NCBI RefSeq assembly: GCF_024218775.1
Contig: NZ_CP100404.1
Span: 2,480,001 to 2,544,000, forward strand
Source: Haloarcula marina
Lineage (GTDB): Archaea; Halobacteriota; Halobacteria; Halobacteriales; Haloarculaceae
Reading direction: 5' to 3'
DNA: 64,000 nt
Program-made: the position numbers and the translations under genes
Notes under the pieces: model-generated
Seen by the model: the letters and a program-made list of their open reading frames with translations, nothing else
Databases searched by the model: none
What the model was told of the DNA's origin: nothing
Shown: in pieces, positions 24,265 to 39,850 of the stretch
Layout of the letters: each line of letters opens with the position of its first letter
How positions within the stretch are numbered: position 1 is the stretch's first letter

Positions 24265-25263
24265 ATGGAGACCCGCAAGGTGCAGGTGACCGGCGGTTCG
24301 ACCTACACAGTCTCGCTTCCGAAAGACTGGGCGACCGAAAACGACGTGAGTGCCGGTAGCGTCGTCGAGTTCCACGCCGAGGACGACCTGCTGTTGCTCG
24401 CGCCGAAACGCGACGACGACCGGGTTGAGGGAACCCTGGACGTGGGCGGACTGGAGAACAAACACGAACTCACGCGCGCGGTGATGACGATGTACGTCAG
24501 CGGCTTCGACGTCATCCGCCTCGAAGCGCCCCGAATCACCGCCGAACAGCGCCGCACCATCCGGAACGCCACGCAAGGGCTGGTCGGGTTGGAGGTCATC
24601 GAGGAGACGTCGGACCGCGTCGTCCTGCAAGACCTGCTCGACTCCTCGGAGCTGTCGGTCCACAACGCCATCACCCGGATGCGACTCGTCTCGCTGACGA
24701 TGCTTTCGGACGCCGTCGAGGCGCTCATCGAGGACGACGACGACCTCGCACAGGACGTGATGCAACGGGACGACGATGTGGACCGCCTCTGGTACATGGT
24801 TTCGCGGGTCTTCCGGACGGTCCTCCGGAACCCGACGGCGGCCAACGAAATCGGCTTCCCGCGGGAGACGGTGTTCGACTACCAGTCCAGCGCCCGCCAA
24901 CTGGAGCGTATCGGCGACCACGCGACGAAGATAGCGGGCCTCTCACAGGAGATAGGCGAGATTACCGGCGAAACGGCCGAACTCCTCGGCCAACTCGAAT
25001 CCGAGGCCACCACCGTCCCGGAGACGGCGATGGACGCGTTACTGGCGGAGGACTCCGACGACGCCGTCGAGAAGGCCAACCAAGCGCGGAGCAGAATCCC
25101 CAGCGTCGACGAGACGGCCCGCGACGTGGACAGCAAAGTCCGGGAACTCGACCCCCAGAGCGCCCAGATACTCGGGCGCGTCGTCGACTCCCTCTCGCGG
25201 ACCGCCGACTACGGCGGTAACATCGCCGAGAGCGCACTCCAAAAGGCCGCCCCGCGACCCTAG
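24265..25263 (+). CDS. AbrB-PhoU phosphate uptake regulator
   Basis: A 332-residue protein. Residues 1-50 (METRKVQVTGGSTYTVSLPKDW followed by AGSVVEFHAEDD) form a SpoVT/AbrB swapped-hairpin DNA-binding domain. The rest, from about residue 110, is a PhoU domain of two three-helix bundles with acidic metal-site motifs (EALIEDDDDLAQDVMQRDDDVDRL and YQSSARQLERIGDHATKIA). In archaea this fused form is thought to sense PstB status or phosphate and to act directly on DNA. It is divergent from pstS across a palindrome-rich spacer. The stop codon overlaps the ppk stop (CTAG, 25260-25263). Confidence 0.93.
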   Translation: METRKVQVTGGSTYTVSLPKDWATENDVSAGSVVEFHAEDDLLLLAPKRDDDRVEGTLDVGGLENKHELTRAVMTMYVSGFDVIRLEAPRITAEQRRTIRNATQGLVGLEVIEETSDRVVLQDLLDSSELSVHNAITRMRLVSLTMLSDAVEALIEDDDDLAQDVMQRDDDVDRLWYMVSRVFRTVLRNPTAANEIGFPRETVFDYQSSARQLERIGDHATKIAGLSQEIGEITGETAELLGQLESEATTVPETAMDALLAEDSDDAVEKANQARSRIPSVDETARDVDSKVRELDPQSAQILGRVVDSLSRTADYGGNIAESALQKAAPRP

Positions 25264-27728
25264 TCGTAGAACCGCTCTAGGGCCGCCCTCGCACCGTCTT
25301 TCGTCTTCAGGTATCGACGCCCACCGTCGGGCGTCCGCACCGTGTACTCGTACACCGAACTGTCCGGGTGGTACCACCGGTCGGCGTGGCGTTCGAGCGG
25401 GTCGTCCGACGCAGTTCGCGTGCCGCCGTCAGCGGTCTGCGGACGCGGTGGCCGGTCCATTTCGTCGTCCGTCGTCACCGTCGTGATGTCGCCCGTCTCG
25501 CCCGTCTCGCTCGTCCCGCCTCCGCCCGCCTCGACGAGGATGCCGCTATCCACGGGGTAGTCCGCGGGGATGCCGCTGTCCACATCGTCGCGGCGAGTGG
25601 CCTTCATCGTCTCGCGCATCAGAATCGCCTGCGTGTTGACGACGGCCTCGCCGTCGCGCGGGTACTGCTGGTCGTAGCTTCCGTCCGCGTTCATCGTCCA
25701 GCGCTTGCAGTTGTCGGCGAGGATGAGGTCCAAGTTGAACTTCAACTGTCGCCGTATCTCCGGGTCCTCGACGGGCGTGACCGCCTCGACGCGGCTATCG
25801 AGATTGCGGGTCATCCAGTCGGCGCTCCCGGTGTAGTACTCGGGGTCGCCGCCGTTCTCGAAGTAGAAGATGCGCGAGTGTTCGAGGAAGCGGCCGACGA
25901 CTGAGTGGACCGTGACGTTCTCGCTGATACCGTCGAGTCCCGGGCGGAGGCGACAGATGTCCCGCACCACGAGGTCTATCTCCACGCCCGCCATCGACGC
26001 CCGGTACAGTTCCTCGACCATCGCGGGGTCCTCCAGACCGTTGACCTTCACGACGATTCGAGCGGGCCGACCCTCCCGGGCGTGTTCGGCCTCGCGACGG
26101 ACGAACCGCGTGAACTCCCGGCGCATCGTCACCGGCGCGATGAGCAGTTTCCGGAACCGCTCGTCAAGTCCGGGGCCGGTGAAGAAGTTGAACAGCGTCA
26201 CGAGGTCCTGCCCGATGTCCCGGTCGGCCGTCAGCAGGCCGAGGTCGACGTACCCCTTCGCCGTCTCTGAGTGGTAGTTACCGGTCCCTACGTGGGAGTA
26301 GAGATTTACTCCGTCGTCTCCCTCGCGGACCACGAGCGCCGTTTTCGTGTGCGTCTTCAGGCCGATAGTCCCGTAGGCGACGTGGATGCCGTTCTCCTCC
26401 AGTCGACGGACCCACTCTAAGTTGTTCTGCTCGTCGAATCGGGCCTTCAATTCGACCATCACCGCCACCTGCTTGCCGTTCTCCGCCGCTTCGATGAGCG
26501 ACTGGATGATTTGGGAGTCGCTGGCGGTGCGGTAGATGGCCGCCTTCACCGCCAGCACGTCGGGGTCGTTGGCCGCCTCGTCGAGGAACCGCTGGACGGT
26601 GTCCCCGAAGTCGTGGTACGGGTGGTGGAGGAGGATGTCGCCCTCGTCGATGTCCTCGAAGACACTCTGCTGGTGGTCTTCCTCGTCGTCGCGTTCGAAC
26701 GCCGCCGGGCGGCGGTCGCGCAGTCGTGGATGTGGCTGTGGCGTCCACGGTTCGAGTTGCAGTTCCGGCCGGTCGAGGTCGGTCAGCAACATGAACTCCC
26801 GGTAGTCGAGCGGTCCCGGCAGGTCGTATATCTCCCGCTCGGCGAGGTCGAGTTGGTCTTTCAGCGTCTCGCGAATCCGCGGATGAGCGTCGTTCTCTAT
26901 CTCCATCCGGACGACGGTGGCGAAGCGGCGCTGTTCCAGCACTTCCTCGATCATGTCGATGAGGTCTTCGGCGACCTCCTCGTTGCGCCGGACCTCCGCG
27001 TTCCGGGTGAGACGGAACAGCGCGGTGTCGACGACTTCGACGTTCGGCAGGAGTAAATCGAGGTTGTTGCGGATGACGTCCTCGACGAGAACGTACGTCT
27101 CCTCGTCGCCGAGTTGGACGAGGCGCGGCCTGTTCGGCGGAATCTTGATGCGCGTGAACGTCGGTCCGTCGGTGTCGGCACGTCGGGTCAGCACCGCGAG
27201 CGAAAGCGACCGATTCGAGATGAACGGGAACGGGTGGGCGGGGTCGAACGATAGCGGCGTCAGCGTGGGGAGGACCGACTCCTCGAAGTAGTCGCGCATG
27301 CGTGAGCGCTGACTGGCGTTCAGGTCCTCGTAATCGCGCACGTCGATGCCCGCCTCGGCGAGCGCCGGGCGGAGCATGTCGCTGTAACAGTCCGCCTGCT
27401 TGGCGAGCATCGGGTCGAGGGTCTCGTGGACCTCCTCCCACTGTTCCAGCGGCGTTCGACCATCCGGACTCTCCTCGGAGATGCCCGCTTCGACTTGCTG
27501 TTTGAGGCCGCCGACCCGCTTCATCACGAACTCGTCTAAATTGCGGGTGACGATAGAGAGGAACCGCACCCGTTCGAGGAGCGGATTCCGCTCGTCCAGC
27601 GCCTCGTGCAGGACCCGACGCTGGAAGGCGAGTTCACTGAGTTCGCGGTTCAGATACAGGTCCGGGTCGGTCAGGTCGACGCCGTCGGGGTCGTACGGCG
27701 GGATGTCCAGTGGTTCCTCGAACGACAT
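25260..27728 (-). CDS. ppk1: Polyphosphate kinase 1 with C-terminal extension
   Basis: An 822-residue PPK1, which reversibly builds polyphosphate from ATP. The N-terminal domain begins LYLNRELSELAFQRRVL. Catalytic histidines by motif are His460 (LKTHTKTAL, matching E. coli His435), His479 (SHVGTGNYH) and His617 (FLEHSRIF). The canonical fold ends near residue 709; the remaining 110 residues are a disordered acidic/Gly-rich linker followed by a small segment (WYHPDSSVYEYTVRTPDG, then RRYLKTKDGARAALERFYD) not seen in bacterial PPK1. The ATG at 27728 shares a base with the stop of the upstream phosphatase gene (TGATG). Confidence 0.95.
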   Translation of the reverse strand: MSFEEPLDIPPYDPDGVDLTDPDLYLNRELSELAFQRRVLHEALDERNPLLERVRFLSIVTRNLDEFVMKRVGGLKQQVEAGISEESPDGRTPLEQWEEVHETLDPMLAKQADCYSDMLRPALAEAGIDVRDYEDLNASQRSRMRDYFEESVLPTLTPLSFDPAHPFPFISNRSLSLAVLTRRADTDGPTFTRIKIPPNRPRLVQLGDEETYVLVEDVIRNNLDLLLPNVEVVDTALFRLTRNAEVRRNEEVAEDLIDMIEEVLEQRRFATVVRMEIENDAHPRIRETLKDQLDLAEREIYDLPGPLDYREFMLLTDLDRPELQLEPWTPQPHPRLRDRRPAAFERDDEEDHQQSVFEDIDEGDILLHHPYHDFGDTVQRFLDEAANDPDVLAVKAAIYRTASDSQIIQSLIEAAENGKQVAVMVELKARFDEQNNLEWVRRLEENGIHVAYGTIGLKTHTKTALVVREGDDGVNLYSHVGTGNYHSETAKGYVDLGLLTADRDIGQDLVTLFNFFTGPGLDERFRKLLIAPVTMRREFTRFVRREAEHAREGRPARIVVKVNGLEDPAMVEELYRASMAGVEIDLVVRDICRLRPGLDGISENVTVHSVVGRFLEHSRIFYFENGGDPEYYTGSADWMTRNLDSRVEAVTPVEDPEIRRQLKFNLDLILADNCKRWTMNADGSYDQQYPRDGEAVVNTQAILMRETMKATRRDDVDSGIPADYPVDSGILVEAGGGGTSETGETGDITTVTTDDEMDRPPRPQTADGGTRTASDDPLERHADRWYHPDSSVYEYTVRTPDGGRRYLKTKDGARAALERFYD

Positions 27729-28435
27729 CACTGAACCGGCGCGGCCCGGCGCGGTTCGACGATGCTGTCAGACGAACGCGAAACGTAGGTCTCTGGCGGT
27801 TCGACGACGACGAGTTCGTCGTTTCGGTAGTCGTAGGCGGTCAGTTGGCCGCCGTAGACACAGCCGGTGTCGAGGCCGACGGCGTGGTCGGTGACGAACG
27901 GTTCGGCGAGAACCGTGTGGCCGAAGAACACGCGGGGAAACTCCCGTCGCGTCTCGAACCAGTAGGGGCGGTCGTAGCTCCCGTCGGGGACCAGCGACCG
28001 GTTGTTCAGCAGTTCGGTGAGCGAGTGTTCGACCAGCGATTTGCGGTGGTCGACGCCGCCGTGGGCCACGAGCACGTCGTCCCACGAGATGATGGCGGGC
28101 ATCGACTCGACGAACGCGAGGTCCTCGTCGGTCAGCGCGTCGATGGTCTTGCGCCCATCGACGAGTTTCTGTTCGTTGTTGCCGCGAACGCTGACGAGGT
28201 TGTCCCGTTCGCGCACGATGTCGACGACACCCTTGCTGTCCGGTCCCTTCCGAACGAGGTCGCCGACGAAGACGACGAGGTCGTCGGCCGAGGGGTCCAG
28301 TTCGTCGAGCAAGCGCTCCAACGTCCCGCGGCACCCGTGGACGTCGCCGACGACGAAGATGTCGTCCCACTGCGTGCTGTCGATACGTCGGTGCGATGCG
28401 TCGATAGTCGGATTGAGCGTCGGTTCTGGTACCAT
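27728..28435 (-). CDS. PPP-family metallophosphatase coupled to ppk
   Basis: A 235-residue calcineurin-like phosphoesterase of the PPP type. Motifs: IFVVGDVHGC (GDxHG), VFVGDLVRKGP (GDxVxxG), VRGNNEQ (GNHE variant with Asn), LVAHGGV and VFFGHTV. These supply the two-metal centre of serine/threonine phosphatases and symmetrical diadenosine tetraphosphatase-like enzymes. It overlaps ppk1 by one base and must be cotranscribed with it, so a role in polyphosphate or nucleotide-phosphate turnover is plausible but not shown. The GNNE replacement is found in some PrpA-like proteins. A TATA-like CTAATATAAAATA lies about 60-75 bp upstream. Confidence 0.85.
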   Translation of the reverse strand: MVPEPTLNPTIDASHRRIDSTQWDDIFVVGDVHGCRGTLERLLDELDPSADDLVVFVGDLVRKGPDSKGVVDIVRERDNLVSVRGNNEQKLVDGRKTIDALTDEDLAFVESMPAIISWDDVLVAHGGVDHRKSLVEHSLTELLNNRSLVPDGSYDRPYWFETRREFPRVFFGHTVLAEPFVTDHAVGLDTGCVYGGQLTAYDYRNDELVVVEPPETYVSRSSDSIVEPRRAAPVQ

Positions 28436-28577: not shown

Positions 28578-28584
28578 TTTATAG
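28578..28584 (+). promoter_or_regulatory. TATA box of putative small RNA
   Basis: TTTATAG matches the haloarchaeal TATA consensus. Its centre is about 25 bp before 28605-28606, exactly where the long stem begins. Confidence 0.55.
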
Positions 28585-28604
28585 TAAATTATAGTGTAGT
28601 ATCA

Positions 28605-28694
28605 GTAGCGTGCAGCTAGCGCCTCGATAAACAGAGGTTCGTCAGTCAGATTCTGCACGCTACCTCACGGCGGCCTTGCACCAGCCGCCGTTTT
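28605..28694 (+). ncRNA. Putative structured small RNA (about 90 nt)
   Basis: GTAGCGTGCAG (28605-28615) pairs perfectly with CTGCACGCTAC (28653-28663), an 11-bp closing stem. Inside, CCTC (28622-28625) can pair with GAGG (28634-28637), leaving two internal single-stranded regions. A second hairpin, CGGCGGC (28668-28674) with GCCGCCG (28684-28690), follows and is trailed by TTTT (28691-28694). A TATA box lies at the right distance upstream. Promoter, stem starting at the predicted first base and terminator all agree on the plus strand. I do not recognise the RNA: it is too short for 7S or RNase P RNA, and no C/D boxes or clear H/ACA pattern is visible. Confidence 0.5.
28668..28694 (+). terminator. 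Hairpin plus T-run ending the putative small RNA
   Basis: A perfect 7-bp GC stem with a 9-nt loop is followed immediately by four T residues on the plus strand. No gene on the plus strand lies upstream within reach, except the putative RNA. Confidence 0.5.
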
Positions 28695-28759: not shown

Positions 28760-29131
28760 TTATTCGACGACGACGGCGTTGACCTGCCCGTCCTGCCCGG
28801 GGCGGGACGTGACGCGGGCCTTGCCTTCGGAGGTCTCGACGATAGCGCCCTTCGTGATGATGTTTCGGCGGGCGTAGTTCGGGTTCGAGGGGTTCTCGAC
28901 GACTTGCTCGATGGTCGCCTCGTGGGACTCGGCGCCGTCGGCGACGGTGGCGATGTCGGTGGTGACCGCGCGGACCTTCTCGGTGTTGCCGCGAGCGTCG
29001 ACGACCTTCAGTTTGCGGTCGCCGACCTGCGTCTCGGTGGATTCGCGGCCGAGTTCGTGCTTTTTCTTCTTGTGGTTCGGGCGTCGTCGACCGCCTGTCC
29101 GCTTGCGAGGGGAGCGTCCCTGGTCTTTCAT
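28760..29131 (-). CDS. rps8e: 30S ribosomal protein S8e
   Basis: A 123-residue archaeal/eukaryotic-type small-subunit protein. The basic N-terminus KDQGRSPRKRTGGRRRPNHK binds rRNA, ARRNIITKGAIVET and VTSRPGQDGQVNAVVVE are conserved C-terminal strands. It stands apart from the ribosomal cluster at 39-53 kb, which is normal for S8e in haloarchaea. It is divergent from the DUF2240-like gene. Confidence 0.97.
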   Translation of the reverse strand: MKDQGRSPRKRTGGRRRPNHKKKKHELGRESTETQVGDRKLKVVDARGNTEKVRAVTTDIATVADGAESHEATIEQVVENPSNPNYARRNIITKGAIVETSEGKARVTSRPGQDGQVNAVVVE

Positions 29132-29253: not shown

Positions 29254-29694
29254 ATGAGTCTGAAGACGGCCGTGGCCGCGCCGTTTCGCCAGCGCGGGAC
29301 CGACAGCATGGCCGAGAGCGAGTTCGTCGTGGCCCTCTCGCTGGACCGCAACTGGTTCTCGCCCGACCAGGCGAAGACGCTGGTCGACGTGGCCGCCAGC
29401 GAGGGCCTCGTCGAACACGACGGGGATTCGCTGGTAGTCACCTTCGACGCCGCCGGAGTCGACGTTCCCGACGGCTTCGCGCCGGGAGAGGAAGTGCTCC
29501 GCTCGCGGTCGACGTTCGAACGCGTTCTCGACGCCGTCGTCGAAAGCGGCGTCGAGAAACAGGACGCCGTGGCCGGCATCAATAGCTTGCAGTCCGAACT
29601 CGGCGTGACGCTGGAGGCGGCCGCCGTCGTCTACGCCCGCAGCGAGGGCGTGGCCGTCGAGAGCATCGCGGCCGAGGCACGGGAGGACATCTGA
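29254..29694 (+). CDS. DUF2240-family protein
   Basis: A 146-residue protein starting MSLKTAVAAPFRQRGTDSM. The pattern of an N-terminal helical segment, SLDRNWFSPDQAKTLVDVAASEGL and a C-terminal helical part (VEKQDAVAGINSLQSELG) matches the archaeal DUF2240 family, which looks like a winged-helix or helical protein of unknown function. The upstream extension to 29185 is not favoured. Its stop overlaps the start of the next gene (TGATG, 29692-29696), so the two form an operon. Confidence 0.8.
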   Translation: MSLKTAVAAPFRQRGTDSMAESEFVVALSLDRNWFSPDQAKTLVDVAASEGLVEHDGDSLVVTFDAAGVDVPDGFAPGEEVLRSRSTFERVLDAVVESGVEKQDAVAGINSLQSELGVTLEAAAVVYARSEGVAVESIAAEAREDI

Positions 29695-39004: not shown

Positions 39005-39850
39005 ATGACGACCAGCGTACTCGTGCCGTCTTCCCTCACACGGGAAGCCGAAGACCGCCGTGAGGCGACTCGTAAGCTCGGATACGTGGCCCGCGCGGCC
39101 ACGGTGTTCCGGGTCGACCGGCTGACAGTGTTCCCCGACCCAGCGGGCGAGGGGAAGTGGGAGGACGGGTTCGTCGAAACCGTCTTACGGTACGCCGCGA
39201 CGCCCCCGCATCTCCGAAAGGAGATGTGGGGCAAGCGGGACGAACTGGAGTACGTCGGCGTCTTGCCGCCGCTCCGCGTGCGTTCACAGACCGGCTCCGG
39301 ATCTGAGGGTTCGGGGTCGTTAAGACAGGGAATCGTGACCGAGGTCGGAGCTGATGGGCGCGTCCGGGTCAATTGCGGCATGCAACACCCGATCTCCCTC
39401 CCCGTTCCAGACGGTATGGACGTGGGCGAGGGGGAGCGCGTGACCGTCAGGGTCTCTTCGCGACGGCCGGTCCGGGCGAAACTCGTCGACCACCCCACAC
39501 CGGGGTTCGACGTGGTTTCCGCGGACCTCGATTCGGCACTCTCGCGCGACGACGCCGGGCTCACCATCGCCTCGTCGAGGTACGGTGAGTCGGTGACGAC
39601 GCGCCGTCTCGGCCATCTGGCCGAGCGTCGGGAGACCGAGGGCGGCATGACAGTCGCCTTCGGCGCTCCGGAGCGTGGGTTACCGTCGATACTCGACGTG
39701 GACCCGGGCTCCGTCGGTGGAGACCAGACAGACGACGACCCCACAGGGTTCGACCTCTGGCTGAATACGGTTCCGAACCAGGGCAGCGAGGTCGTGCGAA
39801 CGGAAGAAGCGCTGTTCGCCTCCCTCGCCTGTCTAACCCTCATGGAGTAA
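39005..39850 (+). CDS. SPOUT-family putative RNA methyltransferase
   Basis: A 281-residue protein of the archaeal COG2106-type SPOUT family (often annotated as RNA uridine-N3 methyltransferase). The N-terminal MTTSVLVPSSLTREAEDRRE and C-terminal LNTVPNQGSEVVRTEEALFASLACL form the trefoil-knot SAM-binding domain, and an internal OB-fold-like insert (about 100-165, GIVTEVGADGRVRVNCGMQ) may bind RNA. It is conserved as the first gene before rpl3 in haloarchaea, so it is expected to act on rRNA during ribosome assembly. The stop is 4 bp before the rpl3 start. Confidence 0.85.
   Translation: MTTSVLVPSSLTREAEDRREATRKLGYVARAATVFRVDRLTVFPDPAGEGKWEDGFVETVLRYAATPPHLRKEMWGKRDELEYVGVLPPLRVRSQTGSGSEGSGSLRQGIVTEVGADGRVRVNCGMQHPISLPVPDGMDVGEGERVTVRVSSRRPVRAKLVDHPTPGFDVVSADLDSALSRDDAGLTIASSRYGESVTTRRLGHLAERRETEGGMTVAFGAPERGLPSILDVDPGSVGGDQTDDDPTGFDLWLNTVPNQGSEVVRTEEALFASLACLTLME

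Follow-up and report, generated by a model that had tools for sequence, protein, structure and literature searches.

A probable structured small RNA gene downstream of rps8e in four Haloarcula genomes

The DNA that we analysed is a 64,000-nt window of Haloarcula marina (NZ_CP100404.1, positions 2,480,001-2,544,000, forward strand), and the coordinates given hereafter are those of the window. The region of interest comprises a gene for a PhoU-domain protein (24265-25263, plus strand), followed on the minus strand by those of a polyphosphate kinase (ppk; 25260-27731), a calcineurin-like phosphatase (metallophosphatase; 27728-28435) and the ribosomal protein S8e (rps8e; 28760-29131), and finally by a DUF2240 gene on the plus strand (29254-29694). 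The spacer between the phosphatase and rps8e genes harbours a proposed small RNA of ~90 nt on the plus strand (28603-28694), divergent to the phosphatase gene and convergent with rps8e. Its start was deduced from the spacing to a TATA box, and its end from a hairpin and a TTTT stretch.

An earlier note on this DNA had described a TATA box, an 11-bp stem closing a 37-nt loop, a CCTC/GAGG pairing within the loop, a GC hairpin and TTTT, and all of them were found in place. The TATA box TTTATAG (28578-28584) fits the haloarchaeal consensus TTWT (PMC4983044), and it is followed by a -10 region, TATAGTGTA (28590-28598). The non-coding intergenic stretch is thus preceded by its own basal promoter elements. 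The 5' arm of stem 1, GTAGCGTGCAG (28605-28615), pairs perfectly over 11 bp with the 3' arm, CTGCACGCTAC (28653-28663), across 37 nt that contain the inner CCTC/GAGG stem (28622-28625 with 28634-28637) and the segment CGTCAGTC (28640-28647). After a linker of 3 nt comes hairpin 2, ACGGCGGC-CTTGCACCA-GCCGCCGT (28667-28691; 28668-28690 in the earlier note), at the end of which lies TTTT (28691-28694). Among the listed ORFs of the H. marina genome, none of 50 aa or more on the plus strand falls inside the block.

The 11-bp inverted repeat taken alone proves little, since the window contains nine such seeds, at eight places, when shuffled sequences average 3.8. What is above chance is the conservation in relatives, namely orthologues in the same spacer that keep the promoter, a compensated stem and the second hairpin.

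Conservation and pairing in four orthologues

We compared rps8e loci across 30 genomes assigned to Haloarcula as GTDB defines the genus, plus named genomes; the named loci nearest to that of H. marina are those of Haloarcula/Halomicroarcula, in agreement with its place in the genus. Three other genomes, G021 (Haloarcula pellucida), G016 and G008 (Haloarcula amylovorans), have an orthologous block in this spacer downstream of rps8e, and in all four carriers it lies roughly 70-240 bases from the rps8e stop codon. In the four-way alignment, 58 of the 105 comparable columns of the block are invariant (55%), versus 17 of 107 upstream (16%) and nine of 51 downstream (18%), and the conservation is spread over the whole block, from the TATA box through hairpin 2. 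The promoter elements retain TTTAT and GTGTA in all four sequences, and both are nearly fixed relative to stem 1, in plus orientation; no upstream box common to the four orthologues was found in the alignment beyond the TATA region. A protein-coding frame is not conserved: the variation tracks stem pairing, and a 7-column difference in loop length would break the frame.

The core of stem 1, CGTGC/GCACG, is invariant, and four pairs of the stem show compensatory double changes, a number matched in six of 500 shuffles. Over the alignment, 97.5% of the cells are paired, versus 24-59% when the partners are slid. RNAalifold independently returned the same two helices and a short inner helix; the CCTC/GAGG inner stem is specific to the H. 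marina genome. The comparison rests on four sequences, all of one genus, and the covariation is therefore limited. Conservation and stem covariation in relatives had been set beforehand as the test of the proposed gene, and both were found, the conservation being confined to the stretch from the promoter through hairpin 2. On the plus strand the H. marina RNA folds at -41.7 kcal/mol (z = -5.2), with none of 200 shuffles as stable, and the z-scores of the four orthologues are -5.2, -4.3, -3.9 and -1.95.

Two loop segments do not vary among the orthologues. The first lies in the large loop, where CGTCAGTC is invariant, and is a candidate seed or protein site; when the sequences are folded singly, CGUCAGUC is unpaired in part, and its last three bases are paired in the consensus fold. 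The second is the GCACC loop of hairpin 2, whose middle bases are consistently unpaired in the folds of the orthologues. In this hairpin, eight of the nine pairs never vary, and ACGGCGGC, GCACC and GCCGC are its invariant parts. The earlier note had taken the hairpin and TTTT together as a terminator. Of the two, the hairpin is the one under strong conservation, the T-run being particular to the H. marina genome, so that hairpin 2 probably belongs to the RNA itself, whether or not it also serves as a terminator. Given that transcription in Haloferax terminates by a hairpin or by a T-stretch (PMC7237163), it may also end the transcript.

Strand and possible action of the RNA

Read on the plus strand, the non-Watson-Crick cells of the alignment are four G-U, one C-A and one G-G. 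The four G-U would turn into C-A mismatches on the minus strand, which has one wobble of its own. This asymmetry and the orientation of the promoter point to a plus-strand RNA. The comparison itself shows that a putative promoter, a stem with compensatory changes and segments of the loops are conserved, in a single copy and at a fixed position. Judging from the sequences, we regard the block with high confidence as a conserved structured element, and with moderate confidence as one that is expressed as an sRNA.

Its anatomy, with its own promoter, no coding sequence, two stable hairpins and invariant loop segments, most likely marks it as a trans-acting sRNA. The interpretation that we favour, and hold to be fairly probable, is a structured sRNA gene that lies between protein genes on the plus strand and is transcribed independently, and whose product would likely act in trans as an antisense RNA. 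RNA polymerase, directed by the conserved TATA and -10 elements, would start immediately upstream of stem 1 and yield an RNA of ~90 nt, with a long stem and a large internal loop presenting the invariant segment, and the very stable GC hairpin would end and protect it. The CGUCA(GUC) part of the internal loop would then pair in trans with target mRNAs, possibly helped by the GCACC loop. More tentatively, the RNA may represent a new Haloarcula family of structured sRNAs, unrelated to the described archaeal RNAs, whose two invariant loops would serve to control a trans regulon. The complement of the putative seed, GACTGACGRR, occurs at 63-130 sites per genome in the four carriers (G000, G021, G016 and G008), approximately threefold or more the number for a control with the pattern reversed, an excess that probably stems from the abundance of GAC-TGA codon/stop contexts. 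These sites are too frequent, and we therefore name no targets. The search for antisense complementarity to the neighbouring genes or to the rRNA operon gave nothing beyond 8-12 nt, and no site shared among genomes.

The main alternative is an sRNA that binds a protein, as a scaffold or a decoy, the protein recognising the internal loop segment and the GCACC loop of hairpin 2. The fixed positions of both segments in a conserved fold point in that direction, as does the near constancy of hairpin 2 in sequence and structure, which exceeds the needs of a plain terminator. However, no known protein-binding motif was recognised, there is no Rfam match, and the inner helix varies between species, and we consider this role unlikely.

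An element of the minus strand, as a structured 3' untranslated region or convergent terminator of rps8e, would agree with the short distance that separates the block from the rps8e stop codon in each carrier and with the ability of hairpins to terminate haloarchaeal transcription (PMC7237163). Such an origin is nevertheless quite improbable: the TATA and -10 elements keep their plus orientation and a nearly constant distance to the stem, the wobbles are four to one for the plus strand, the minus strand has no T-run after the element, and most congeners have rps8e without the element.

Distribution in the genus and relation to phosphate genes

The small RNA gene that we propose has a patchy distribution: it is carried by four of the 32 genomes of the genus, as a single copy at a fixed position, and no paralogues were found in the carrier genomes. 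Blastn in the family returned H. pellucida as the only match. With a covariance model, the four copies score 87-106 bits, partly by construction since the same four built the model, and the next best score in 146 family genomes is 31.9 bits. No convincing further copy was detected in these 146 genomes, the 32 of the genus and 392 sampled genomes of the order, and in the latter nothing convincing lies outside Haloarcula. The weak matches that we inspected, including one in G010 (E 0.0015), are chance-like and fall in GC-rich, coding-like sequence, and they are devoid of a promoter, CGTCAGTC or the hairpin loop, the relic of Haloarcula rubra described below excepted. A search of the genus with the hairpin-2 pattern gave the four copies and four further sites at which the remainder of the element is missing, and the motif TTCGTCAGTC...CGGCGGC mostly hit unrelated sites. 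Among the phages, plasmids and viral contigs searched, there was no match to the element; hairpin-pattern matches in viral contigs had scores like chance.

In H. rubra (G024; L150 1-224), hairpin 2 is present with the loop CCTGCACCA beside the PhoU-domain gene, with an apparent insertion element adjoining. The promoter and the 5' arm are absent, and this block is probably a relic of the RNA gene. A small protein tree places the carriers in two groups, G000 with H. pellucida and H. rubra, and G016 with H. amylovorans, with non-carriers between them. As the carriers are thus split and the spacer is fixed, this weak tree suggests one old gain followed by several losses. The RNA is not essential to the genus, since most congeners are devoid of it. 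MITE-like imperfect palindromes (ends CTATAGTAAC and CTACGATAG, centre CACACCGACCGCACCGCCGT) were also seen near rps8e, in different spacers: the rps8e-downstream spacer of H. amylovorans (L005) and about 2103-2205 of L002 in H. pellucida.

The earlier note had speculated on a role in phosphate physiology. Intact ppk and phosphatase genes adjoin rps8e in nine of the 30 genus loci, and the RNA is present in two of these nine; the other seven congeners have both genes without the RNA. Conversely, G016 keeps the RNA and is wholly devoid of ppk, and in H. amylovorans (L005/L090) only short fragments of ppk and phosphatase remain, ~480-770 bases past the rps8e stop, and the RNA block is intact. The RNA is therefore not tied to these genes, and its integrity beside their decayed fragments indicates that it is kept independently of them. 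We thus rejected an association with ppk, and the speculation is not supported. A phosphate-starvation regulator acting on the neighbouring ppk, phosphatase and pho genes, in the manner of the Haloferax sRNA132, would suit the PhoU-domain, ppk and metallophosphatase genes nearby and the use of an sRNA in the haloarchaeal phosphate response that sRNA132 demonstrates (PMC6560208). Against it stand the two genomes with the RNA and no intact ppk/phosphatase, the seven with the reverse, the want of extended complementarity to the neighbours and an upstream box shared only at the TATA region, which make it a poor candidate.

Lastly, a DNA-level element or mobile inverted-repeat relic, to which the frequency of 11-bp inverted repeats in the window and the palindromes near rps8e in relatives might lend credit, is very improbable for a single-copy block without paralogues, in the same spacer of each genome, with its promoter spacing kept and conservation across its whole length.

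The element is thus very probably a real, undescribed and narrowly distributed small RNA gene, and the earlier proposal of a plus-strand gene of unknown family with its own promoter is strengthened by the same-spacer orthologues, the compensatory changes, the conserved TATA/-10 elements and the lack of an Rfam match. Sequencing has brought hundreds of sRNAs to light in haloarchaea, but in few of them does a conserved structure allow the working parts to be identified. The present gene is compact, is delimited by its covariation, its promoter and its invariant loops, and occurs in cultured species, in which deletion and target mapping could be attempted directly; its narrow range limits its wider importance.

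Comparison with known RNAs

None of the Rfam 15 families matches the element above the gathering threshold, and we found no published description of it in the literature searched. A separate observation in the window is a match above the gathering score at 39351-39450, to the L4-Archaeoglobi ribosomal protein leader (76.6 bits), in a haloarchaeon. The element does not have the hallmarks of the two guide RNA classes: stem 1 is followed by CTCACGG, CTCGACGG or TTCGACGG and not by an ACA box as in box H/ACA RNAs, and neither of the boxes of box C/D RNAs, RUGAUGA and CUGA, is conserved on the plus strand. The CreT toxin RNAs (PMC8501985) are small RNA genes likewise found in Haloarcula. They are tied to CRISPR-cas loci and act by tRNA sequestration; in contrast, no cas genes were seen beside the RNA described here, nor is there a conserved ORF.

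The sRNA132 of Haloferax volcanii, a 138-nt RNA needed early in phosphate starvation and reported in Haloferax only, shares with the Haloarcula RNA an intergenic location, its own promoter, two stems, restriction to one genus and a fixed genomic place (PMC6560208). It is located beside HVO_1405, between hypothetical genes, and its stems are separated by a 13-nt pyrimidine-rich linker (PMC6560208), whereas the Haloarcula RNA adjoins rps8e, has ~90 nt and a 3-nt linker. With homologues of the one in Haloferax only and of the other in Haloarcula only, as the covariance search of the 392 order genomes also indicated, the two are set apart by locus and range rather than by alignment.

The closest likeness in size, intergenic position, possession of a TATA promoter and absence of an ORF is to the intergenic sRNAs of haloarchaea (PMC4983044, PMC3956466). 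Those were found as transcripts, whereas the proposed Haloarcula RNA is supported by its conserved structure and promoter.
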